Shown: positions 4,896 through 46,000 of the stretch, piece by piece
Layout: each line of letters opens with the position of its first letter
Position numbering within the stretch: position 1 is the first letter of the stretch
Assembly (NCBI GenBank): GCA_017528045.1
Contig: JAFXPG010000010.1
Coordinates: 77,968 to 124,871 of the forward strand
Reading direction: 5' to 3'
Origin: Alphaproteobacteria bacterium
GTDB lineage: Bacteria > Pseudomonadota > Alphaproteobacteria > Rs-D84
Length of the DNA: 46,904 bases
Translations under genes and position numbers: made by a program
Notes under the pieces: model-generated
Databases searched by the model: none
The model's input: the letters and a program-made list of their open reading frames with translations, nothing else
Told to the model about the DNA's origin: nothing

Positions 4896-5585
4896 ATGAA
4901 AAAATCTATATTCTTTTGGCTGTACTTTGTTATATCCATTGTTTTGGCTGTGTATTTTGCATCTCGTATAATAACCAGTCAAATGGGACGTGGACCTGTA
5001 TCTAATGTAAAACAAATAGAAATTATAACAAACAGCAAAGATACTGATATTGAACCTATTAAAATAGCCATAGGTGTCACCAAAGGTACAAACATAAAAT
5101 CATTAGATTTATATAATATAAACCACCGTGTTATGTCTGTACCTGGTATAAAAAAATCATCAACACGCAGATTACCAAATGGTAATTTAATTATAAAAAC
5201 AGAAAAACATGATATTGTTGCTATGTGGACAGATGGTTCTTTATACTATCCTTTGTCTGTTGATGGAACAAAAATAGATACTCCAACAGAAACCCCTGAT
5301 AAAAACACTTTGGTATTTAGTGGTGAATTACCAAATAATTTAAAAGAAATAATATCCAATGTGTCCCCTTTATCGGAATATATTGAATATTTAGATATGG
5401 TTGAATCAAGACGCTGGAATATTCACACAACAAACGGAACAACAATATATTTACCAGAAAACAATGTATCTGTGGCTGTTAATAAAATAAGCGTTTTAAA
5501 TCAAACACATAAATTATTATCTCGCGAATTAGATGTAATTGATATGCGAGATAATGCCAGAATTTTAGTTAAAACAAGAAAATGA
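4896..5585 (+). CDS. ftsQ: Cell division protein FtsQ
   Basis: FtsQ is the bitopic membrane protein linking early and late divisome components. Residues about 6-25 form the single membrane helix. A POTRA-like domain follows (about 55-115: IKIAIGVTKGTNIKSLDLYN, VPGIKKSSTRRLPNGNLIIKT). The C-terminal beta domain contains two signatures of the family, ESRRWNIHTTNGTTIYLPE (compare RRWDL..NG..V.LPE) and LDVIDMRDNARILVK (compare D.R..DR..V). Its 229 residues are on the short side. The stop overlaps the ftsA start by ATGA, so the two are translationally coupled, as in the usual ftsQ-ftsA order. No mur or ddl genes precede it and no ftsZ follows within the window. Confidence 0.85.
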   Translation: MKKSIFFWLYFVISIVLAVYFASRIITSQMGRGPVSNVKQIEIITNSKDTDIEPIKIAIGVTKGTNIKSLDLYNINHRVMSVPGIKKSSTRRLPNGNLIIKTEKHDIVAMWTDGSLYYPLSVDGTKIDTPTETPDKNTLVFSGELPNNLKEIISNVSPLSEYIEYLDMVESRRWNIHTTNGTTIYLPENNVSVAVNKISVLNQTHKLLSRELDVIDMRDNARILVKTRK

Positions 5586-7366
5586 ATCTTTATAATTCAT
5601 CATTTTTATGTTTAGATATTGGAACATATGGTGTTCGTGGGATAGCACACAATATTCACAATGCTAAAATTGTTAATTCAGCAACATATTTTGTAAAAAA
5701 TACAAATACTATATTTGCATTAAAAAGTGTTATTGACGAATTAGAACACCAATTAAAAACAAATTTTAATTCTGCTTTTGTCACCGGAAATTTTGGTGAT
5801 TCTGACTTTCAAACTTTTTCTGATACTATATCATGGAATAATGAACACAAAATAACAGAAATAGATTTACATCATCAAACTGCAAAAATTTCCACACAAG
5901 ACGGATTTTTTGCAATGCATATTATTCCAGTATTTTATTCAACACCAAAAATAAAAAATATCGGAAATACACCAATAGGTCATATTGATACACAGCTAAA
6001 ATCAATATTCAGCATAATATCATATGAAGAAGAACGAATTAAATACATATCTGATATAATGCGCAGATCTCACATACAATGTGCAGGTTTTTTTGATTCT
6101 GCGTTTTTACAAAATGCGATATTAAGGAAACCTAAAGAAAAAGTTTTATTCCTAGATTTAGGAAATGAATTTACAACAGTATCAATATGGACTGATCGTG
6201 GACCATTATATTTTAACAAAATAAAATTTGGCCAAAACGATATCACAAAAGAATTGATGCACGAATTAAATATAGGACAATCTGATGCAGACACATTAAA
6301 AATATCTGTTGCTAATGCATTGCCTAATGAAATGGACAGATTTACCCCAGCAGATTCATCAGAAAAATTTTCTAATTTTTCTCGCGCTGACATAAATGAT
6401 GTTTTTATACCAACTTTATCTAAATTAATAAATACGGTTATACAAGAATCTGATAAATATATTCAACAATATAAACCTGAAAAAATCATTTTATCTGGTG
6501 GTGGCACATCTATCGAAAACATAAATACTTTCATAGAACACGCTTTCGGTTTACCAGTAGAAAATCAAACTGATGGTGCATCTGTAAATGCCTTATCTGA
6601 ATATATATGGCAAAGTCATTTATCTGAAAGAAATGCTTATTTAGAAAGACAAACTAAATTTAAAAATTATTTTGATAAATTTATAAATATTTTTCACAGA
6701 AAGAAAAAAGTAAAAAAACATAAATTTATACCGATAATGCCAAGTACTTTATGTTTTAATATGAATGATTACACAACATATACAATGTTTGCATCTGCTG
6801 GAATTTCAATGATTCATGTTGATATAATGGATGGTTTTTATGTTGATAGAATTGCCGGCGGAATAAAAGATTTGGCAAACATACGTTCAAAAACAAAAGC
6901 ACATTTGCATGTTCATTTAATGACAGAAAGTCCTTCTGTTTGGGCAACAGATGCGATAAATGCTGGGGCTGATACAGTTATAATATCAACAAATACATCT
7001 GGGGTTCACGATGCTATAAATATAATAAAAAATGCTGGTAAAAGATGTGGTATTGCTATAAACCCTGATTCAAATATAGATATCATTGTTCCTGTATTAA
7101 AACAATTAGATGAAGTTATGGTTATGGCAGTAAAGCCAGGTGCAGCGGGACAAGAATTTGATGATACAATTTTACACAAAATACAAATGTTAAATCACAC
7201 ACGAAAAAAACATGGTTTAAAATACATAATCAGTGTAGATGGTGGTATTAACCCTGAAACTGCAAAATTATGTTGGAATGCTGGCGCAGATTTATTAGTA
7301 AGTGGCTCTTATCTTGCAAAATCTAGTGATTTTCCTTTGGCTGTACAAAGTTTATTGAAGCACTAG
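5582..7366 (+). CDS. ftsA: FtsA fused to ribulose-phosphate 3-epimerase (Rpe) domain
   Basis: One uninterrupted 594-residue frame holds two proteins. Residues 1 to about 376 are FtsA, the actin-like divisome protein that tethers FtsZ to the membrane: LDIGT near the N-terminus, phosphate-2-like LFLDLGNEFTTVSIW, adenosine motif LSGGGTSI, and an amphipathic basic helix (KFKNYFDKFINIFHRKKK) like the usual FtsA C-terminal membrane-targeting helix. Residues about 380-594 match ribulose-5-phosphate 3-epimerase: IMPSTLCF, IHVDIMDGFYV (metal and catalytic Asp), HVHLM, MAVKPGAAGQEF, ISVDGGI (second catalytic Asp) and SGSYLA. Both parts have normal family length. No convincing ribosome site precedes the internal Met of the epimerase part. 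The start overlaps the ftsQ stop, and the last 15 bases overlap convergent tsaE. Confidence 0.87.
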   Translation: MNLYNSSFLCLDIGTYGVRGIAHNIHNAKIVNSATYFVKNTNTIFALKSVIDELEHQLKTNFNSAFVTGNFGDSDFQTFSDTISWNNEHKITEIDLHHQTAKISTQDGFFAMHIIPVFYSTPKIKNIGNTPIGHIDTQLKSIFSIISYEEERIKYISDIMRRSHIQCAGFFDSAFLQNAILRKPKEKVLFLDLGNEFTTVSIWTDRGPLYFNKIKFGQNDITKELMHELNIGQSDADTLKISVANALPNEMDRFTPADSSEKFSNFSRADINDVFIPTLSKLINTVIQESDKYIQQYKPEKIILSGGGTSIENINTFIEHAFGLPVENQTDGASVNALSEYIWQSHLSERNAYLERQTKFKNYFDKFINIFHRKKKVKKHKFIPIMPSTLCFNMNDYTTYTMFASAGISMIHVDIMDGFYVDRIAGGIKDLANIRSKTKAHLHVHLMTESPSVWATDAINAGADTVIISTNTSGVHDAINIIKNAGKRCGIAINPDSNIDIIVPVLKQLDEVMVMAVKPGAAGQEFDDTILHKIQMLNHTRKKHGLKYIISVDGGINPETAKLCWNAGADLLVSGSYLAKSSDFPLAVQSLLKH

Positions 7367-36182: not shown

Positions 36183-36560
36183 TTAACAAATTTCTGCATC
36201 ACCAAAACCAAACTGTGTTAAAGAATTTTCTTTGGCTTGGACACAAATATATTGCATTTCGGTTTTGCCTGTATTTGCCATTGCACGTTTTGCACCAGTT
36301 GCAACACGAACAGCTGTTCCTGGTTTTATTTCTATTGTTTCATCATCAACCGTAAAAGTTCCTTGTCCAGATAAAAATATATAAATTTCTTCATTTTGTT
36401 TATGAACATGATTAAAAGGAGATGTCGCACCAGCAGGCATAACACTGACAGATATTTCCGCACTGGTTAAAGATAAAACATCATGCAAAAAAGCTTTTCC
36501 GTGTTCCATTTTTGCAACATCTGCCAAAGTTCCAAAATTAGTTGATGAATATTTTTTCAT
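36183..36560 (-). CDS. Cupin-domain protein
   Basis: 125 residues with one cupin-2 barrel. SPFNHVHKQNEEIYIFLSGQGTF (about 47-69) contains the metal-binding cupin motif 1 (HxH, four residues, E, then G), and IEIKPGTAVRVATGAKRAM follows as motif 2. Cupins of this size bind metal ions and act as small isomerases or dioxygenases or only bind ligands; the substrate is unknown. An AAGGAG site precedes the ATG. The HxlR regulator gene at 36685 is divergent, an arrangement in which the regulator usually controls its neighbour. Confidence 0.85.
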   Translation of the reverse strand: MKKYSSTNFGTLADVAKMEHGKAFLHDVLSLTSAEISVSVMPAGATSPFNHVHKQNEEIYIFLSGQGTFTVDDETIEIKPGTAVRVATGAKRAMANTGKTEMQYICVQAKENSLTQFGFGDAEIC

Positions 36561-36639
36561 ATTAATTCTCCTTGTGTTGTTTTACGACATAAATTATATT
36601 ATATAAAATAAATTATGTAAAGTAGGCATATTTTTGTAA

Positions 36640-36675
36640 TATAGTATAAAAAAAGTAACTATTGTATAAAAAAAG
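36640..36675. repeat. Two 16-base direct repeats in front of the HxlR gene
   Basis: TATAGTATAAAAAAAG (about 36640-36655) and TATTGTATAAAAAAAG (about 36660-36675) differ by one base and are 20 bases apart, two helix turns. They sit in the 124-base divergent region between the cupin and hxlR genes, and the second one abuts the hxlR ribosome site. They could be operator half-sites or duplicated -10 regions. Confidence 0.6.
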
Positions 36676-36684
36676 GAAATTTTT

Positions 36685-36996
36685 ATGAAAAAAAATTTAC
36701 CAGAATGTCCTGTTGCGACATTTTTAACACTTGTCGGGAATAAATGGAAAATTTTAATAATACGTGATTTGTTATCTGGAACAAAAAGATTCAAAGAATT
36801 GCAACGCAGTATTGGTTGCAGTCAAAAAGTTTTAACAGATAATTTACGTGAATTAGAAAAAAATGGTCTAATATCACGAAAAGTTTATGCAGAAGTACCA
36901 CCACGTGTAGAATATAGCATGACAAAAACAGGTAATTCAATATCACCTGTTTTAGATTCTATTGCTAAATGGGGAACAGAATACAAAAAAAGATAA
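36685..36996 (+). CDS. HxlR-family winged-helix transcriptional regulator
   Basis: 103 residues, normal for the family. The core motif is CPVATFLTLVGNKWKILIIRDLLSGTKRF, where HxlR proteins have Cys at position 8, followed by KRFKELQRSIGCSQKVLTDNLRELEKNGLI (recognition helix and wing) and VEYSMTKTGNSISPVL. The N-terminal Cys is the redox-sensing residue in characterised members such as HypR and YodB, so thiol or aldehyde stress sensing is a reasonable guess. It is divergent from the cupin gene and has two direct repeats in its promoter region. Confidence 0.9.
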   Translation: MKKNLPECPVATFLTLVGNKWKILIIRDLLSGTKRFKELQRSIGCSQKVLTDNLRELEKNGLISRKVYAEVPPRVEYSMTKTGNSISPVLDSIAKWGTEYKKR

Positions 36997-37003
36997 AACA
37001 AAA

Positions 37004-37207
37004 TTATTGTTTTGATATGTTTATCTTTGATTCTTGATAACGCCCTAAAACATAATTTCCCAAAGGCATTGCTATTAATACTTGTAAAAACAAAGCAAAT
37101 AAATAATTACGTGGCAAAGCTGTAATATAAATAAAAGGTAAAGTAACTATCCATTTTTCAATACTTAAAACATTAAATATCCATAAATTACATAAAATTT
37201 CATATAT
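37004..37207 (-). pseudogene. Possible degenerate small membrane protein ORF
   Basis: In the 272 bases between the HxlR gene and the giant gene, a minus-strand frame of 68 codons is open from about 37207 to a stop at 37004 but has no usable start. Its translation is hydrophobic and protein-like, with WIVTLPFIYITALPRNY and LFALFLQVLIAMPLGNYVLG as two membrane helices, each introduced by LP, as in small two-helix proteins such as DUF2798. An ATG with a good AGGGG site lies at 37203 but in another frame, where it stops after 12 codons. A single-base frameshift would join them. No other feature is seen in this gap. Confidence 0.35.
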
Positions 37208-37268
37208 TCACCCCTGTTTTTTTAAGCGGCAAACATATTAAATTAAAAAATTTTTTTGAATCAAGTTT

Positions 37269-40200
37269 TTAATTTCTTCCAGATTCATCAGATGGGGTTA
37301 TAAAAATATCTCTATCTATACCTAAATGCTTTTTTGATTCACGCAAAGCCATTAATTTTTCTATTTCTTCTTTTGCTTTTCTTAATATATCCATTCTTGA
37401 AATTTCTGGTTCTGTACCGATATATTCAATTCTTATATTACTTTGTGTTTTTGAAAAACCTTCTGACAAAGTTTTAAACCAACCTGGACGTAATATTTTC
37501 AGTTTATTTAATATAACCTTTGTACGAATAGTTCTCATTACTGTTTTATTAATTATTCCAGAATTTATCAAAGCAATTATTATATTTTGTAAATCTTTTT
37601 CTGTTAAAACTTTACGTTCTTGAATAATTTTTCCATCTTCATCTTTTATTTCTTTTTGATATTCAATTATATCTGATAAAGCAATCAAACCACGCTGAAC
37701 ACCATCTATATAAGCCGTATCAAAACCATATTTTTTACCCATAGAATCTAGTTGTTGAACATTAGAATTTAAAACATCTGATATATCTTTTCCGTTTCTT
37801 GCTTCACGAATTAATTCATAAAACAAATGTCCTAACATTATTTTATCTTTTATCCCTGGTTTGTTGCTCATTTGTGCACCGGTATCAAAAATACCTATAC
37901 AAAAATCACGAAAATCTTTGTTATAAAAATTCTGTTGTCCCATATGTCTGTCTGTATCCCAAGTAGCACCAGATAATAATATAGCCAATTCTAGCGCAAC
38001 ATAACCAACAGCCATATCATGCTTATCTTCTTCATCTATTGCATCTGAGATTAAAGATTCACCTTGGGCCATTTCCATAATTTTATAAGCATTATTTTTG
38101 CCTTCATCTGCACCATACCCAATCCATCTTTCAACATACGGTGAATAATCTGCATTTGTGGTATGAACTGTTAAATTTTCATAAATTTTAACAGCCCTGC
38201 AATATTTATCATAATCTTGCTGGACATCTATTTCAGATTCACAAGATAATTTTGCTTGCGTTACAATATTTTTTAAAACTTCAAATTTCTTATCTTTTTT
38301 TGCCATATCATTAATAGAACGTGAAATCATATCAATACCACCAGACATTAATTCACGTGTATATGGACGCATTAAAGCTATTACACAATCTTGATTATCA
38401 TATTTAACATGTACAGAAACATAAATAGATCCGCCACCAAGAATTTTACCGACATATGATATTTTATTAAATTCTGATTCAGGTAACGATGTCTTAAACA
38501 TTTCATACAGTTCGTCTCTGGTCGGCAAATTAGCTTTTTCTCGTAAAGTTGCTAATTCTTTTCTGATATCAGAATCTAAAGTTGGCAAATAAGATAATAA
38601 TTGTCCAAATTTAACAAATGCCCCTCCTTTTGTTTGGAAAAACATTTTTAAACCACGTCCAACCTGCTGTCCATTCGATATACTTGAATTATCTTCATTT
38701 TGACCAGAAGATAACAAAGCAGACAAAATCAAATTTTTTTCATAATCTTGCAAATTATTATATACAGATTCCAACACAATGAACGCATCTTTATAGTATT
38801 CAGAATCATCATTAAAATAAGTATTTATTACCAACTCTAATTTTGTTTTATCATTCGTTGTATAAGCATCTAGCAATTTATTCATGACATATGCTCGTAT
38901 TGGTAAATCTGCACTCCAAAAATTTTCATGAATCATTGTCAAAGATTGCTTGTTTATAACATTATCTACTTTTGATTCTGTATTTTCTAAAACACTTTCT
39001 AAAAATATTTTTACGGATTCATCCGTCAACTTTTTATTCAAAAAACGTATAGTTTTTAAAGCTTTTTGTGGTGTTTGTGCTAATTTTGAAAAAGCGGCTT
39101 CTGCACCACGACCATAATAATCATAATCGTTTATTTTTTCTGAATTTACACGTAATTTTCCACCACTGGCAAATAATTTTGCAGCTTTTTCTTGTGCAAT
39201 AACATTATCAGAAATTTTATTTAATACGCTTTGAGCTATCATTTGTGAAAACAAACGTTTATCTATATAAACATTTCGTTTATTTAAAACTTTTTCAACC
39301 TGTGTTATGTGTTCTACACATGTTTTTACACGTTCAAGATAGTTATCAGAACCATCATCTCGACCTAAAATTTTGGTCCAATATTTTGCATAAAAATCTA
39401 TTAATTTTTCACGCTCGTTTGCAAAATCTAAATCTCTGTCAGCTAAAAATCCATATTCAGTAACAGGGTGTCTTGCTAACAAAGGTTCTACTATTTTATT
39501 AACAACAAATTCCTGGTTATCATTTTGTATTGTTTCGTTTACTATTGTTCTTATTAACGAGTTTTTATTTGCTATTTTTTCAGAAAACAATTTATTTGTA
39601 TCCATAAATTCATACAAAGTTATTTTATCCATCAAAGAAAGATTTGAAAAATTAATATATGTTCCAAATATATCTTGTATTTCTGTATAAACATATTCGT
39701 TTTTTTCTGTATATGTTGGTTTAAAATATTTAAACAAATCTATTGGATTACATTTATAACCATTTTTTAAATATTCAGCCCACAAAATAAACATTAATTT
39801 GTAATATTCTGCACTTGGATATTCTTTTCTGTTGTTTTGACAAAGCAATAATGATTGTTCCAGTTCTTTTTGATTTTTCGGCATATTCATTATGCCGATT
39901 GTTCTCATCATAGTTGATATTATTTCAGATGGTCTGTTTTCTAATAATTCGGATTTTACTTTTTCTGCTAAAAAAACTGGTAAATCAACAACAACACGAC
40001 TATTTTTAATTGCATGTTTTATTACTTCTTGATTAAAATCTTCTTTATATTTTTCAGTTTTTTTATGAGCATCTCTAAGTTTATCCCTGAAAATCATTTT
40101 ATCTGCCAAATTACCTTCTATAAAATGACTTTCGAATATAGTTGTTGGGTGTACATATGTTTCAATAAGTTCTTGATATTTAGTTCGTCCATAATATTCG

Positions 40201-41996
40201 TCATCTTTTGATATATCATCCGCTTCTTTTAACAAAGATTGCATAATAAATTCATTGAACTTACTGTAATTAGCAGGATTTAATGTTACACGTATTCTTT
40301 CCAATATATAATTTAAACTTTTAGTATATAATCTTTCTGGTTCATATTGGATTTCTGGACTTGTAAGAATAAATTCTTTATAAAAAGATGTTTGTTTTAT
40401 TTTTTCATAAAAATCAAAAAAAGCATCATAACTTATACCATATTTTTCCATCTTTTCTTCTAAATTGGATTTTGCCCCTATATATATATATTTAGAAGCT
40501 TTATAAATAGAAAAATTATGTTGTAATTCATATTCTAATTTTTTTTCTTCTGCTATATTTGCATATAAATCTACATATTTACTTCTTGAAATTTCACCTT
40601 TGTAATAACTGACTGTTAATTCAATCAATTGCAATATTACTTCAAAGAAGTCTATATTTTTTTGTATTTCTTTTTCAATTTCTAATTTTTCTTTGTCTTT
40701 ATACAAAAGATGTGCTTCTTCACCATAAGCGGTAACTATCTTGTTTTCATCCAGAAAATAATCTTCTGATTTAAAATTTACAATTTTTGAATAATGTGCT
40801 TTAGCAGCATATTCAGTTTGAAAACAATATTCAAAAATATAATCTATATTATGAACCTTATATGATTTTAATTGATCCCAAGGCAACATTTTTCCAATAT
40901 TATCCTTACCCAAAGGTTCAACTTTTATTTCTGGCCAATTAACATCTTTAACAAAATAAACAGTCCATAATAAAGATGCTATTTTATTTGCATATTCTGT
41001 TGCTTTCTCTTTATCATAACAATATTTAATAAGATTTTTTATATTTTCATATTGTTCTTTAAAAGGACCAAACATTTCAAGCTTAAAATGCCTTAACAAT
41101 TCATCAAGATGTATTGAATATTTATCTCGCAAAGCTAAAAATATATCTTGTAAAACAACTGTTTCTTCTTCTGATTTTACAGAATAGTTATATTCATATA
41201 ATTTTTTAACTAAATCTTTTATTCTGACTTCATGCTCTTGATCAAACCATTCTGGATGAGTTTTTATACATTCAAGAAAAAATTTTAAAACTTCCAGTCT
41301 GTTTAAATTTAAAACATATTTTTGACCAAATTTTTTCTTTAATTCTTTATCCAGAAAAGTATCATAACCGTCTTCTTTGTAAATTTGTTCTAATTCTTTT
41401 TGAAAATTCAACCAATCTGTATCTGGCTTATCGTTTGTTATATCTGGAAAATCACCTTGTTCAGAAGCGATTTTAGTCATATAGGCTTTAACATCTTCTA
41501 TACGTTGATATGAACTGCCATGAACATTAAAAGTTACTTCAGAATTAGAAAAATTACCAAATATTTTTTTCTGTGCCACAGTCACATATCTTGGGTTATA
41601 ACCCGCATTTATCATCATATCTACACTGTGAATATCCGCAGAACGTTCTTGAATAATAGTATTATCCCCCCCTATTAAATCAGCCCAAATAACATGTCCA
41701 CATTCATGAGCTATAATGGCGGCAAATTCTTCAATTCTTGTTAATTTTTGTATTAACCCATACGATACAGCAATTACTGTTTTGCCATCTACTTTTTTTT
41801 GTGATTTAAAAGCGTTGGCTTGTGTATCATCATACCCCAAGAAATAAAAATCATCCAAATTTATATCAGTGCCTTGGAATAATCTGGCAAAAACTTCTTT
41901 TATCTTGGCACTTATTTTTGACTGCATTCTGCTGTTGATATCATAAAAACGAAAACCTTCAAAAAATTTCTGATCAGAAAAATTTACCTGTGCCAT
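37269..41996 (-). CDS. Giant M48-like metallopeptidase and ABC1/UbiB-like kinase fusion protein
   Basis: 1575 residues in one frame, with no signal peptide and no convincing membrane helix. The head (about 1-140) has IIAHECGHVIWAD (HExxH, about 97-101) and QERSADIHSVDMMI (Glu about 117), matching the zinc ligands of M48 peptidases. A region of about 950 residues of unassigned, mostly helical sequence follows. The tail (about 1110-1400) reads as an ABC1/ADCK/UbiB kinase-like domain: AFVKFGQLLSYLPTL (KxGQ motif), GGGSIYVSVHV (nucleotide loop), DTDRHMGQQN (catalytic loop D, H and N) and FDTGAQM (DFG-like). The usual nucleotide-loop Lys seems replaced (CVIALMRP). ABC1 proteins are normally 450-600 residues and not fused to peptidases. 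A TATAAT box lies at about 42025-42020, about 24 bases before the ATG. Confidence 0.8.
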   Translation of the reverse strand: MAQVNFSDQKFFEGFRFYDINSRMQSKISAKIKEVFARLFQGTDINLDDFYFLGYDDTQANAFKSQKKVDGKTVIAVSYGLIQKLTRIEEFAAIIAHECGHVIWADLIGGDNTIIQERSADIHSVDMMINAGYNPRYVTVAQKKIFGNFSNSEVTFNVHGSSYQRIEDVKAYMTKIASEQGDFPDITNDKPDTDWLNFQKELEQIYKEDGYDTFLDKELKKKFGQKYVLNLNRLEVLKFFLECIKTHPEWFDQEHEVRIKDLVKKLYEYNYSVKSEEETVVLQDIFLALRDKYSIHLDELLRHFKLEMFGPFKEQYENIKNLIKYCYDKEKATEYANKIASLLWTVYFVKDVNWPEIKVEPLGKDNIGKMLPWDQLKSYKVHNIDYIFEYCFQTEYAAKAHYSKIVNFKSEDYFLDENKIVTAYGEEAHLLYKDKEKLEIEKEIQKNIDFFEVILQLIELTVSYYKGEISRSKYVDLYANIAEEKKLEYELQHNFSIYKASKYIYIGAKSNLEEKMEKYGISYDAFFDFYEKIKQTSFYKEFILTSPEIQYEPERLYTKSLNYILERIRVTLNPANYSKFNEFIMQSLLKEADDISKDDEYYGRTKYQELIETYVHPTTIFESHFIEGNLADKMIFRDKLRDAHKKTEKYKEDFNQEVIKHAIKNSRVVVDLPVFLAEKVKSELLENRPSEIISTMMRTIGIMNMPKNQKELEQSLLLCQNNRKEYPSAEYYKLMFILWAEYLKNGYKCNPIDLFKYFKPTYTEKNEYVYTEIQDIFGTYINFSNLSLMDKITLYEFMDTNKLFSEKIANKNSLIRTIVNETIQNDNQEFVVNKIVEPLLARHPVTEYGFLADRDLDFANEREKLIDFYAKYWTKILGRDDGSDNYLERVKTCVEHITQVEKVLNKRNVYIDKRLFSQMIAQSVLNKISDNVIAQEKAAKLFASGGKLRVNSEKINDYDYYGRGAEAAFSKLAQTPQKALKTIRFLNKKLTDESVKIFLESVLENTESKVDNVINKQSLTMIHENFWSADLPIRAYVMNKLLDAYTTNDKTKLELVINTYFNDDSEYYKDAFIVLESVYNNLQDYEKNLILSALLSSGQNEDNSSISNGQQVGRGLKMFFQTKGGAFVKFGQLLSYLPTLDSDIRKELATLREKANLPTRDELYEMFKTSLPESEFNKISYVGKILGGGSIYVSVHVKYDNQDCVIALMRPYTRELMSGGIDMISRSINDMAKKDKKFEVLKNIVTQAKLSCESEIDVQQDYDKYCRAVKIYENLTVHTTNADYSPYVERWIGYGADEGKNNAYKIMEMAQGESLISDAIDEEDKHDMAVGYVALELAILLSGATWDTDRHMGQQNFYNKDFRDFCIGIFDTGAQMSNKPGIKDKIMLGHLFYELIREARNGKDISDVLNSNVQQLDSMGKKYGFDTAYIDGVQRGLIALSDIIEYQKEIKDEDGKIIQERKVLTEKDLQNIIIALINSGIINKTVMRTIRTKVILNKLKILRPGWFKTLSEGFSKTQSNIRIEYIGTEPEISRMDILRKAKEEIEKLMALRESKKHLGIDRDIFITPSDESGRN

Positions 41997-42064
41997 TTAA
42001 TAACCCCGTTGTTGCTGTAATTATAACACAAAACGCATATTTTACACAGGGTTTTCTTATAACA

Positions 42065-42093
42065 TTGATTTTTTGATAATTTTGTGGTATAAT
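42065..42093 (+). promoter_or_regulatory. Promoter of the Mtd-like gene
   Basis: TTGATT (about 42065-42070) and TATAAT (about 42088-42093) with 17-base spacing. Transcription should start near 42100, at the ATG of a four-codon ORF and just before two tandem terminator hairpins. Confidence 0.7.
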
Positions 42094-42099
42094 ATCACC

Positions 42100-42158
42100 A
42101 TGCGGTTGGAATAAATCCAATCGTTTTTTATTTGCCGGGTTTTCCCGGCTTTTTTTTG
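42100..42158 (+). terminator. Two tandem intrinsic terminators in the 5' leader of the Mtd-like gene
   Basis: Hairpin 1 pairs CGGTTGGA with TCCAATCG (about 42103-42110 and 42116-42123) and is followed by TTTTTTATTT. Hairpin 2 pairs GCCGGG with CCCGGC (about 42134-42139 and 42144-42149) and is followed by eight T. Both lie between the promoter and the ORF, so most transcripts should stop early unless something intervenes. A mini-ORF, ATG CGG TTG GAA TAA, starts at about 42100 and ends inside hairpin 1. Confidence 0.7.
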
Positions 42159-42176
42159 TATACCAAGGAGATCTCT

Positions 42177-42689
42177 ATGTCAAAACAAATACAAATACGT
42201 CGCGGAAGTGCGGCTGAAAACGATGCTTTTACCGGGGCAGTCGGTGAAATAACAATGGACACCACAAATAATACATTGCGTGTGCATGACGGCACAACCG
42301 CCGGCGGAATAAAATTGGCTAAACAAAACGAAATACCGGCACCATATACAATGCCATCAAATTATGATTTTGTGGTTGAATATCAAGAACCCACAGCCGC
42401 AAACAATTACACATGGTACCGTAAATATAAAAGCGGTTGGGTAGAACAAGGGGGTACATGGACAGGAAATATAGTTTGTGCAGAAGGCATGGAAGTTTAC
42501 CAAACAGTTAATTTACCAGTAAATATGTTAAATACAAAATACTATGCCTCTTCATCTGTTATAGAATTACATATGTTATCAATGGGTATAACCAAGAATA
42601 TAAATCAAATACTTTTTCGTTTTGGTGCATACAAAATAAGCAGAACATTATCAGAATTCACATGGTATGTTTGTGGCAAATCAGCATAA
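42177..42689 (+). CDS. Phage-tail-type protein with Mtd N-terminal domain
   Basis: 170 residues from the ATG at 42177, chosen for an AAGGAG site 6 bases upstream. The N-terminal 45 residues (KQIQIRRGSAAENDAFTGAV, GEITMDTTNNTLRVHDGTTAGG) match the major tropism determinant N-terminal domain that trimerises at phage tail tips. The remainder (FVVEYQEPTAANNYTWYRKYKSGWVEQGGTWTGN) is a small beta-rich head seen in phage or prophage receptor-binding proteins. No other phage genes flank it. Expression appears controlled through the two-terminator leader. Base use is more GC-rich at the start of the gene than in the neighbours (GTCGCGGAAGTGCGGC), a possible transfer sign. Confidence 0.78.
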   Translation: MSKQIQIRRGSAAENDAFTGAVGEITMDTTNNTLRVHDGTTAGGIKLAKQNEIPAPYTMPSNYDFVVEYQEPTAANNYTWYRKYKSGWVEQGGTWTGNIVCAEGMEVYQTVNLPVNMLNTKYYASSSVIELHMLSMGITKNINQILFRFGAYKISRTLSEFTWYVCGKSA

Positions 42690-42691
42690 AA

Positions 42692-42720
42692 AAATCGGGT
42701 GATATACCCGATTTATTATT
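42692..42720. terminator. Bidirectional terminator after the Mtd-like gene
   Basis: AAATCGGGT / ACCCGATTT (about 42692-42700 and 42706-42714), five-base loop, A- and T-runs at the ends. It serves both the plus-strand gene and the convergent methyltransferase. Confidence 0.8.
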
Positions 42721-43768
42721 TTATGATTAAAAATAAAATATTTAATAACATTAAACAGGTAACAAATATTAAAATAATATTTGAATATTTTTTGTTTTTT
42801 AATTTCATTTTTTTATAATACTTGTACATCTGTATTTCTAAATTATTTGATAAAATATTATTGTTTTCTTTTAAACCAAAAATATCTTTCTTTAATTCTT
42901 CAATTTTGTTATTTGAAGTTTCCATTTTATATAATAAATCTTGTAATTGTTTATCTTTATCTGACAATTCAGATAAATATTGTTGTTTATATTGTTTAAT
43001 ATAATTTGGCGCATTATTTTCATTTATATTAACAGCAGATATATTTTTTGTACATAACATTGATTGATTTTCATCTGATATCTTTGCTTTTACAACATAC
43101 TGCCATACATAAGAATGCCAATCTTCTAAAACAAATCTTTTTATATCATCTGACAGATACTCATAAGGGTTTTCTGGTTGCAATCCATTTTTTTCAAAGA
43201 ATGTAAAACAGGATTTTTCTATACATAATCCAGCAGATGCAAACATTGATGCAATACTTTTATAAGTAAACAAATGAACATGTGTTTCATCTAATACACC
43301 ATATTGCGTATAAGTAAAATCATTTAATAATAGATTTGATTTTATACTTGCATGCGCATTATTTGGTATAGAAGCAATTATCGCACCGTTTGGCTTTAAA
43401 TACGTTTTTAATACTTTAATTGTATTTTCAGGGTTTCTTAAATGTTCCAAGATATCATTACATACAACGTAATCAAATTTAGAAATATAATCTTTAAAAC
43501 TGTCTTCTGATAACTGATTTAAATCAAATTGTTTAACGTTTTCATAAGCATCTGTTTTTCTGGCTATTTCACACGAATCTTTATCATATTCTAAACCATA
43601 TACCAAACAATTTTTATGATTTTTTAAAGCAATACCTAAATCACCACATGCACAACCAACATCTAAAACAACACTGTTCGGTTCAATATAATTTATAGCC
43701 ATAACATGTGAATCATTCACATTATTTAAATCAATATCTAATTTATATTTCTCACCGGATTTTAACAT
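42716..43768 (-). CDS. SAM-dependent methyltransferase with coiled coil and C-terminal membrane anchor
   Basis: 350 residues. The class I SAM-binding motif is VVLDVGCACGDLGIAL (about 33-48), and FDYVVCNDILEHLRNPENTI (about 92-111) with PNGAIIASIPN are motifs of the Methyltransf_23 type found in sugar and polyketide pathways. After about residue 230 comes a coiled coil (KQQYLSELSDKDKQLQDLLY, NKIEELKKDIFGLKENNNIL) and a final membrane helix (ILIFVTCLMLLNILFLIIK) at the C-terminus. It might tether a polysaccharide-modifying methyltransferase to the membrane. It is the last gene of the polysaccharide run, 12 bases after the RgpF-WbsX stop. Confidence 0.8.
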   Translation of the reverse strand: MLKSGEKYKLDIDLNNVNDSHVMAINYIEPNSVVLDVGCACGDLGIALKNHKNCLVYGLEYDKDSCEIARKTDAYENVKQFDLNQLSEDSFKDYISKFDYVVCNDILEHLRNPENTIKVLKTYLKPNGAIIASIPNNAHASIKSNLLLNDFTYTQYGVLDETHVHLFTYKSIASMFASAGLCIEKSCFTFFEKNGLQPENPYEYLSDDIKRFVLEDWHSYVWQYVVKAKISDENQSMLCTKNISAVNINENNAPNYIKQYKQQYLSELSDKDKQLQDLLYKMETSNNKIEELKKDIFGLKENNNILSNNLEIQMYKYYKKMKLKNKKYSNIILIFVTCLMLLNILFLIIK

Positions 43769-43780
43769 AATTATATTCCA

Positions 43781-46000
43781 TTATTTTTCTGTTTTTTCTA
43801 AACAATCTTTAACTATTTGTAATTTGCGATATCCCCATCTGGTTGTTGGTTCCAAGATTGCGCCTTCAGCCCATTCATTCCATGCATTTATATACACATA
43901 TTGCATATTTTTTGGGTTATTTTCTTTTGTCCATTTTATTATACCAGATAACCATTGTTCAAATTCTTTGTCTGTTATCTCAAAAACGCCACCACCTGAA
44001 TAAACTTTTCTTGGTGTATTATCCCAATTTGGAAAACAACACTTGAAAAGTGTATAATTTTGTTTTGGTTCTGCTTCCTGTTTTTTTATATAATTTTCCA
44101 TAGAGTAGACATTAAGTTTTGTATTTTGACTAACAAAATGCTTTTCTAACATATAAACGTCTGATAATCCATGCGGTGGAAATTCTATTATTCCTTTTAA
44201 CCCGTACTCTCTAGGATTAGAAAAATCGAAAGCGTTACTACCCATGAACCAAAAGCCATCAAAACCATGATTTTTTGCTAATTTATCCAACTTTGAAATA
44301 AATTTTTTAAAATCTTCTTTATCAAACATTGATGGTCTATAAATCATTAATAATGGTTTATTATCAATTTTCTCATATCTTTTATCTTTTATAAAAGGTA
44401 ACAAATCTTTGAAGAATTTATCTGCGTTTAACTTTTTTTCCTGTGATAAAATAATTTCTTTATCACCACCATCCCATAACTTTGACCAATTTTCATTTGC
44501 CCAACAAAGATGGAATGGTAAATCTATGTCCGACTTTAAAAAGTTTTCAAGTGGCTTTTCCAATACTTTTTTTCCATCAAACCAATAATAATAAAAACAC
44601 CAACCATATACCCCATACATTTTTGCCAATTCAGCCTGACGTTTCATAACATTTATATCCAACAAATTATAAAAACCAACATCGTATGGTATTTTAGGTT
44701 GATAATGCCCAATAAATTGTGGCGAAGCAGATGCCACATTTGTCCATTCTGTAAATCCTTTGCCATGTGCATCATCATTTTCTGGAATTGCATGAAATTG
44801 TGTTAAATAATATGTAAAAATCTTTGGTGTATTTTTTTTACGTTTAAAAGGTTTATTTGTAATAGGAACAAACAACGATTTATCATTATGCAAATCTTCT
44901 AACCATTTTACATATTCAGAAGAAAAGTTATTCATGCAATGAATTTTTGATTGATATATTTTTTTATTAAATAAAAAAATTTCTTTGTTATTTTTATTAA
45001 AAATACTTTTATAAACTCTTAAACCAAACAATCTAATTCTAATAGATTTTTCTCCTAAATTTGTAGTATTTACTTGTTTTTTTATTGGATTGAGATAATA
45101 AATATGCTTTTTGCATTTTTGTGTGTTTATACCAACAATACGTTTATTTTGCGCAACAACAATTTCTCCCAAAACACGTTCTAATACATAAACATCACCA
45201 TGCCAATCTCTTTTTTTATCAGATTTTTTCCAAGAAACTTTACCATTAATATTTTTTAAAACTTTTAATAAATCAGATTTTACCATAAACATTGTTCCAG
45301 CAAAAAAAGCGTAAGGCTTATACGTTAAACCTAATTTTTTTGTTAATTTTTCCACATGTGGTTCATAATAACTATTATCTTCATTTCTATTCAATAATAT
45401 TTTAATATTTCCAACCGCACCTGTTTTATAGTGTGATAATTTGTTAAATGATTTTTTTAAATTTTCTTTATAAAAAGGGTTTAATAAATAATCACGCCAT
45501 TTTGTACCACCAACACAAACACCATTATCTAAACAATAATTATTATCATCATAATTTCTTTTTGTGTGTAATTTTAAAACATATGTATAATCATCAAGAT
45601 TAACAGAATTAATAACATCTATAAAAGGTTTAATATCATATCCAACATTATCAACCAATCTTATATCAGCATCTGGAAATCTTTTCTTAAATAAATTTTT
45701 ATTTAATTTTTTATCTACATATGTAATAACAATTTTTTTTGCCCCGTCTATATTATCAACAATATCAGCCAATTCATCAAATAATTCTGGATAATATACA
45801 TGTATATGAACCAATAATGACTCATTTTTTTGTAAAGTATATTTGTAATCATTATTCTTTGAACTTATTCTGCAATTAAACAAATAAGTTTCACTAAAAG
45901 AACCGGACCATCTTTTTTTCAAATATCTTATACCACAAAAATAATATTTATTTGTGTGAACGCCATTATCAAAAAATTCTTTTTTCTTGATTAATTTCAT
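43781..46000 (-). CDS. RgpF-type and WbsX-type polysaccharide synthesis protein
   Basis: 739 residues with two domains. The first (about 60-300) matches the rhamnan synthesis F family: LLVHIHVYYPELFDELADIV, VDNVGYDIKPFIDVI, YTYVLKLHTKRN, GTKWRDYLLNP and KPYAFFAGTMFMVK. The second (about 390-735) matches WbsX, a glycosyltransferase-like GH99-fold domain: YYLTQFHAIPENDDAHGKGF, GVYGWCFYYYWFDGKKVLEKP, LPFHLCWANENWS and YVYINAWNEWAEGAILEP. Proteins with both are common in O-antigen and capsule clusters and transfer or process sugars at the cytoplasmic face. It is preceded by a GT2 enzyme and followed by the methyltransferase. Confidence 0.87.
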   Translation of the reverse strand: MKLIKKKEFFDNGVHTNKYYFCGIRYLKKRWSGSFSETYLFNCRISSKNNDYKYTLQKNESLLVHIHVYYPELFDELADIVDNIDGAKKIVITYVDKKLNKNLFKKRFPDADIRLVDNVGYDIKPFIDVINSVNLDDYTYVLKLHTKRNYDDNNYCLDNGVCVGGTKWRDYLLNPFYKENLKKSFNKLSHYKTGAVGNIKILLNRNEDNSYYEPHVEKLTKKLGLTYKPYAFFAGTMFMVKSDLLKVLKNINGKVSWKKSDKKRDWHGDVYVLERVLGEIVVAQNKRIVGINTQKCKKHIYYLNPIKKQVNTTNLGEKSIRIRLFGLRVYKSIFNKNNKEIFLFNKKIYQSKIHCMNNFSSEYVKWLEDLHNDKSLFVPITNKPFKRKKNTPKIFTYYLTQFHAIPENDDAHGKGFTEWTNVASASPQFIGHYQPKIPYDVGFYNLLDINVMKRQAELAKMYGVYGWCFYYYWFDGKKVLEKPLENFLKSDIDLPFHLCWANENWSKLWDGGDKEIILSQEKKLNADKFFKDLLPFIKDKRYEKIDNKPLLMIYRPSMFDKEDFKKFISKLDKLAKNHGFDGFWFMGSNAFDFSNPREYGLKGIIEFPPHGLSDVYMLEKHFVSQNTKLNVYSMENYIKKQEAEPKQNYTLFKCCFPNWDNTPRKVYSGGGVFEITDKEFEQWLSGIIKWTKENNPKNMQYVYINAWNEWAEGAILEPTTRWGYRKLQIVKDCLEKTEK

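Follow-up and report, generated by a model that had tools for sequence, protein, structure and literature searches.

Does a single natural protein join an M48 zinc peptidase to a kinase-like domain of the UbiB/ABC1 type, and what would such a protein be for? The question is raised by a gene in the window, the whole 46,904-nucleotide stretch of DNA that we analyzed, which comes from an alphaproteobacterial genome of 0.89 Mb in 16 contigs; the named relatives found are Alphaproteobacteria MAGs from the rectum of goats and sheep and two uncultured proteobacteria. A sequence-only reading had proposed one open frame of 1,575 residues carrying the motifs of both domains. We recovered exactly that: a single frame of 1,575 codons, with its ATG at 41996 and its limits at 37269 and 41996 on the minus strand, and many stops on the plus strand across it. 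Every motif named in that reading was present, namely, HECGH (residues 97 to 101), ERSAD (117 to 121), KFGQ (1129 to 1132), DRHMGQQN (1349 to 1356), and FDTG (1370 to 1373). The gene and its parts are as follows.

37269-41996, minus strand: whole gene, a fusion of M48, variable, solenoid, and UbiB-like parts (1,575 aa)
41457-41966, minus strand: M48 peptidase domain, residues about 11 to 180
39927-41291, minus strand: variable middle part of low conservation, residues 236 to 690
38667-39926, minus strand: helical solenoid-like part, residues 691 to 1110
37497-38666, minus strand: UbiB/ABC1-like domain by hhalign and NCBIfam UbiB, residues 1111 to 1500
37272-37496, minus strand: C-terminal tail with a K-A-x-x-E-I...H-L-G-I element, residues 1501 to 1575
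42102-42149, plus strand: two terminator-like hairpins between divergent genes (consensus scan only)

HxlR and cupin genes lie downstream of the fusion gene. Its upstream neighbor is a divergent gene (42132-42689, plus strand) with a match to the Major tropism determinant N-terminal (Mtd_N) domain (E = 1e-13), which is known from phage receptor-binding proteins. The region from 36500 to 42800 contains 10 terminator-like sites, versus 1.8 in shuffled sequences, as counted by consensus scan only.

We rejected an assembly or frame artifact as the source of this architecture. A misassembly of two separate genes cannot account for it, since we found 12 full-length fusion sequences, each in one frame, in 11 genomes (alignment A1; loci L002 to L005 are the same genes as four of its rows and were counted once). 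A single natural protein thus contains both the M48 and the UbiB-like part, and the motifs did not arise by chance, since models of both domains match the homologs. Counts of alignment rows below are out of these 12 sequences, and residue counts are out of 16 UbiB-like or 17 M48-bearing sequences after extra sequences were added. The sequence-only reading knew of no established family joining M48 to ABC1, and the limited literature collection that we searched likewise yielded no description of an M48-UbiB fusion.

The distribution of the gene is patchy. Matches were found in 4/59 close relatives searched, the window genome included, and matches of any kind were found in 15/191 genomes of its order: 10 carried a full-length single frame, 1 a split form, 2 a partial M48 part, 1 a UbiB-like part without M48, and 1 a weak M48 match only. 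Genome G134 has two overlapping open reading frames (ORFs) in different frames (541 and 1,062 aa), which represent either a natural split or decay. A second order, that of genome G408, gave matches in 3/33 genomes, G408 included. When the C-terminal half was used as the query against a sample of the class, 2/289 genomes matched, the window genome and G408, the latter with two copies. A C-terminal profile matched 307/398 genomes in a sample of the phylum; among the matches listed, only that of the window genome was full-length, and the others were partial, in frames of up to 776 aa. Collections of phages, plasmids, and viral contigs contained no homolog of the fusion.

The N-terminal domain scored 37.2 bits against Pfam M48 (cutoff, 20.3), this model matched all 12 aligned homologs at an E value of up to 0.1 (best, 1.3e-12), and structure comparison found the M48 fold. 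The active-site elements are given below.

41694-41708, minus strand: HECGH zinc site, residues 97 to 101; H, E, and H invariant in 12/12 rows
41634-41648, minus strand: ERSAD, residues 117 to 121, with the presumed third zinc ligand Glu and an Asp, by alignment to 3c37
41520-41522, minus strand: His159 of an H-G/P-x-x-x-R element, invariant in 12/12 rows and aligned with HP..R of 3c37

Glu117 and Asp121 are also invariant in the 12 full-length rows, and HExxH together with the downstream Glu ligand (ExxxD) is kept in 16 of the 17 M48-bearing sequences. The M48-like zinc site proposed earlier is therefore borne out by score, fold, and a complete conserved site. The fusion protein is an M48 peptidase by domain, and protease activity is likely. 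It shares with the M48 family members 3c37, BepA, and HtpX the fold, HExxH, ExxxD, and the later His, whereas it differs from them in being a domain within a 1,575-aa protein whose hydropathy suggests neither a signal peptide nor a membrane helix. It also falls far below the HtpX equivalog model, the NCBIfam cutoff of which was missed (best, 24.2 bits versus 245). The highest 19-residue hydropathy is 1.59, and none of the 12 sequences has a signal-peptide-like start, so that hydropathy alone speaks for a soluble protein in the cytoplasm, the location that had been suggested. The exception to site conservation is L130:2-4402 (plus strand), a homolog cut by a contig end, in which the M48 site is degenerate but the residues of the UbiB-like part persist, with DFG as the DxG motif.

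The C-terminal domain of the window protein matched UbiB weakly as a single sequence (E = 2e-5, and 6.6e-6 when searched together with its homologs). The NCBIfam UbiB model matched 12/12 homologs at an E value of up to 0.1 (best, 3e-12), and a 12-row C-terminal profile aligned by hhalign with five ordinary UbiB proteins at a probability of 97 (E = 8e-11), the register holding at KxGQ, ExD, the catalytic Asp, and DFG. These matches substantiate the ABC1/UbiB-like motifs seen earlier. The window copy lies well under the curated NCBIfam UbiB cutoff (24.9 versus 487.55 bits), and Pfam ABC1 matched none of the 12 homologs at an E value of up to 0.1. The elements of the putative nucleotide site are as follows.

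38601-38612, minus strand: KFGQ (KxGQ motif) with Lys1129; K and Q kept in 16/16
38427-38441, minus strand: glycine-bearing nucleotide loop L-G-G-G-S, where UbiB has an Ala-rich AAAS
38364-38384, minus strand: beta3 strand V-I-A-L-M-R-P, lysine missing, versus V-A-V-K-V-x-R-P in UbiB
38226-38234, minus strand: ExD motif, EID in the window copy, with Glu1255 kept in 16/16
37929-37958, minus strand: catalytic loop D-T-D-R-H-M-G-Q-Q-N with Asp1349 kept in 16/16
37878-37886, minus strand: DTG at the DFG position with Asp1371 kept in 16/16

The KxGQ motif of L129 reads KTAQ, and the Asp of ExD is replaced by Asn in 3/16 sequences. The nucleotide loop is GGGS or GAGS in 10/12 alignment rows and GSAS in the other 2, rather than the Ala-rich AAAS. 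The beta3 Lys position holds Ala, Ser, Gln, Gly, or Thr in 16/16 sequences (the alignment of L130 is unsure there, its R-P being missing too), and the alpha-C Glu position, four residues past the ExD Asp, holds Asp (7), Gly (6), Ser (2), or Ala (1). The Lys-Glu pair is thus absent from all 16 sequences, whereas it is present in 5/5 reference UbiB proteins. Although the domain resembles UbiB/ABC1/COQ8 proteins in having KxGQ, ExD, the catalytic Asp, and DxG in register, the absence of the beta3 Lys and alpha-C Glu, the Gly loop in place of AAAS, and the score below the UbiB cutoff set it apart. Since several of the UbiB-defining features that we tested were not found, it should not be filed as UbiB. 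Similarly, given that the beta3 lysine and alpha-C glutamate are missing in every copy, ordinary protein kinase activity is not to be assumed; of the joint action proposed for a protease and an atypical kinase, the protease half stands on its complete zinc site, but the kinase half does not carry over as stated.

Nucleotide binding by this domain is plausible, and we infer that the KxGQ lysine and ExD glutamate may have taken over the role of the lost pair. According to a review, UbiB proteins have an Ala-rich loop and an active site into which the KxGQ and ExD motifs are folded, and the A339G change in ADCK3 moves preference to ATP and allows autophosphorylation (PMC4718504, excerpt); an excerpt of PMC7877690 describes A339G as a hyperactive control. 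The predicted model of the C-terminal part had a pLDDT mostly under 60, and Foldseek and VIA-align matched mainly helical repeats at low Z scores. No ABC1/UbiB structure was among the listed fold matches, an absence that tests nothing because the model is poor in that part. Since no ABC1 domain over the cutoff was found in 53 own-order genomes searched, the window genome included, the fusion is unlikely to serve ubiquinone synthesis, and a role as a partner of UbiB is unlikely for the same reason. Beside a ribonuclease III gene at L039 lies a UbiB-like gene of 555 aa that stands alone (L039:8043-9710, minus strand); it has no M48 part, and the same Lys and Glu are missing from it. Given that L130 has lost its zinc site and that this L039 protein lacks M48, cutting is not essential to every member.

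The two domains had been described as joined by about 950 residues of unassigned helical sequence. A linker of about 930 residues does exist, in which residues 691 to 1110 form the helical, solenoid-like part; residues 236 to 690 are poorly conserved, with a mean identity of 8 to 35% per 75-residue block between six rows from the genus and the window protein. The confidence of the predicted model is low beyond about residue 480. The tail element is common to the own-order fusion members, and the tail is not consistently basic. When a tail profile was run against 2,179 ORFs at an E value of up to 10, it matched only own-order fusion-family members, not the G408 copies, and a shared secretion tail was rejected on this basis. 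We took a SopD profile match (E = 0.03) to be chance, along with low-scoring Pfam matches, for example to CFTR_R and RE_endonuc.

What, then, might the protein do? Although the architecture and the kept and missing residues are firm, the biological role is a bet. We tentatively favor, as a possible rather than a probable answer, a single-gene, soluble, cytosolic protease machine with a nucleotide switch, encoded by an accessory, fast-diversifying conflict gene that most likely defends against phages or mobile elements. The M48 zinc peptidase would be the cutting part, and the variable stretch and helical solenoid would form a recognition arm. The UbiB-like domain would bind nucleotide in a rewired pocket, in which the KxGQ lysine and ExD glutamate would replace the lost pair, and it would gate the protease, either as a switch or as a second enzyme. 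Such a gene would act inside the cell against phages or mobile elements, be lost often, and sometimes travel on mobile elements. The family itself is real; its genes change fast and are dispensable, and they may play a part in conflicts with phages, mobile elements, or hosts. In its boldest form, the proposal is that this one gene makes up a new immune or conflict system and that its nucleotide switch, derived from UbiB but with KxGQ Lys and ExD Glu in place of the universal kinase Lys-Glu pair, directly controls the fused zinc protease; this form strikes us as doubtful. The defense reading draws on the complete M48 site in 16/17 sequences, the 16/16 conservation of K1129, E1255, D1349, and D1371 and loss of the canonical pair, solubility by hydropathy, and the patchy spread (15/191 and 3/33 genomes); the dispensability of cutting in L130 and L039 counts against it.

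The evolution of the gene bears on this reading in both directions. In three pairs from the genus, in which dS is near saturation, the UbiB-like part evolved most slowly (dN/dS, 0.11 to 0.24), followed by M48 (0.15 to 0.33), and the middle (0.39 to 0.80) and tail (0.29 to 0.82) were the fastest parts, a pattern that we count in favor of the defense reading. The two G408 paralogs, compared pairwise, gave a dN/dS of 1.08 over the whole gene, with a bootstrap interval for dN-dS that includes zero (-0.025 to 0.057). The M48 segment (dN/dS, 1.70; interval, 0.026 to 0.173) was the sole segment of five to exclude zero; the UbiB-like segment gave 0.70, with an interval that includes zero, and a gene duplicated together with the paralogs gave 0.32 over 98 codons. 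Because it comes from five segments, a simple method, and one paralog pair, this excess is a lead, not proof. Seven carriers share a slot within the genus. A tree of the fusion gene and a tree of lpxK plus its neighbor divide these seven into identical sets of three groups, the branches being longer for the fusion gene, which is absent from close relatives of several of the seven. These matching groups and absences point to mostly vertical descent with repeated loss rather than frequent transfer, which counts against the defense reading. The copy at L033, which belongs to the same genus but lies elsewhere in its genome, grouped with L032 of another genus (98/98), suggesting transfer in that case.

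Mobility or defense markers were found near 6/15 loci, whereas none was identified close by at the other 9. In G408, an arm-type integrase precedes the copy at L038; the copy at L037 is preceded by AbiEi and AbiEii genes and followed, about 1.5 kb downstream, by another integrase. The gene duplicated behind both copies is NikA/MobC-like, as judged from the one behind L037. Near the L046 copy there are an integrase and a PDC-S13 gene, a PDC-S37 gene adjoins that of L033, a serine recombinase lies near that of L031, and the marker at L130 is, as we read its sequence, an IS66-like transposase. Apart from the gene shared by the two G408 copies, the neighbors listed included no partner gene conserved across carriers. 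No PADLOC family matched the fusion protein at an E value of up to 0.1. At an E value of 1e-20, 41 PADLOC families matched within 138 neighbors pooled over loci, versus 14 within 138 own-genome control ORFs; since one gene may match many families, families overlap, and the control is not empty, this excess is suggestive at most. The pooled matches, which are not assigned to individual loci, included PDC-S23, a type II methyltransferase, and AbiEi and AbiEii for a second time, the last two probably being the ORFs that flank the L037 copy. Own-genome control stretches (L108 to L116 and L119) had PADLOC matches to RT_UG29 and RT_UG17 (reverse transcriptase) and to SspH.

Alternatively, the protein could be a type IV secretion effector, exported through VirB/VirD4 to act as a protease and kinase-like enzyme inside host or neighboring cells, which we consider somewhat unlikely. 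It is large and soluble and has a conserved tail element in its own order. VirB4 exceeded the cutoff in 12/13 genomes searched, including all 12 own-order genomes with the fusion or, in G104, its UbiB-like part, and a VirD4-type coupling protein did so in 11/12 carriers searched (11/11 own-order). The exception in both cases was G408, which has two fusion copies but no VirB4 match and a VirD4-type score below the cutoff, although a coupling-protein-like gene (TrwB and TraG-D models over the cutoff) lies about 4.5 kb upstream of one copy. By these distributions, an effector is possible for the own order and less likely for G408. Four of the seven carriers in the slot (L043, L045, L046, and, at about 11 kb, L044) have virB3-virB4 or VirB4 on its far side on the same contig; the other three have VirB4 on a different contig. 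However, VirB4 also adjoins the slot in 17/20 stretches from the genus without the fusion, and the tail element was found on no other ORF examined. In these 20 stretches, the slot holds what we take to be glycosyltransferases, sugar-nucleotide enzymes, an ABC ATPase, acetyltransferases, an integrase, or little else.

The agreement of gene and flank groups would also suit an endogenous regulator, a conditional quality-control or signaling protease whose UbiB-like part senses adenine nucleotides and whose loss reflects genome reduction. Both catalytic parts are under purifying selection, and in seven of eight same-genus full-length carriers the gene lies within about 12 kb of genes that we take to be lpxC-lpxK-DUF374; the L033 stretch, unlike the other seven, contains no lpx-type genes. 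The neighbors of L129, in the second order, likewise appear to be ordinary core genes. Nevertheless, absence from most close relatives searched (only 4/59 match, the window genome included), the integrase and mobilization neighbors of other copies, and the very fast middle region make such a regulator unlikely. Finally, it is improbable that the UbiB-like domain is a pseudokinase scaffold that neither phosphorylates nor hydrolyzes ATP and just holds or inhibits the protease. In favor of a scaffold, the beta3 lysine and alpha-C glutamate are gone from 16/16 sequences. Against it, the catalytic Asp, the DxG Asp, the KxGQ Lys, and the ExD Glu, for which a scaffold alone would have no use, are kept in 16/16, and the Gly loop resembles the ADCK3 A339G change that favors ATP (PMC4718504 and PMC7877690, excerpts).

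Among known systems, PGM48 and the ABC1K kinases of plants offer an analogy only, as they are separate proteins and not a fusion. The ABC1 kinases (ABC1K) share the plastoglobule compartment with PGM48. PGM48 is an M48 protease of plant plastoglobules (PMC12587418, excerpt). The polyvalent proteins of phages and conjugative elements are large and multidomain, with an HExxH peptidase and sometimes kinase domains; their peptidases form their own clades, and their kinases lack the C-terminal subdomain and keep the ATP-site residues (PMC5512222, excerpt). The fusion differs in having an M48 peptidase and a UbiB-like domain; it has no phage or plasmid match, and integrase and mobilization genes lie near its G408 copies.

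The chemical function of UbiB/COQ8 proteins is a long-standing question. In the natural family described here, a zinc protease is tied to a UbiB relative that has dropped the canonical lysine and glutamate and has glycines in its nucleotide loop but retains the UbiB-specific motifs; with the protease as a possible readout, what KxGQ and ExD do can be tested directly. Elsewhere in the window, a 739-aa frame (43781-46000, minus strand) joins RgpF-like and WbsX glycosyltransferase domains. A 594-aa frame (5582-7366, plus strand) matches FtsA over residues 191 to 329 and ribulose-phosphate 3-epimerase over residues 386 to 578 and is an unusual fusion of a cell division protein and a sugar enzyme.
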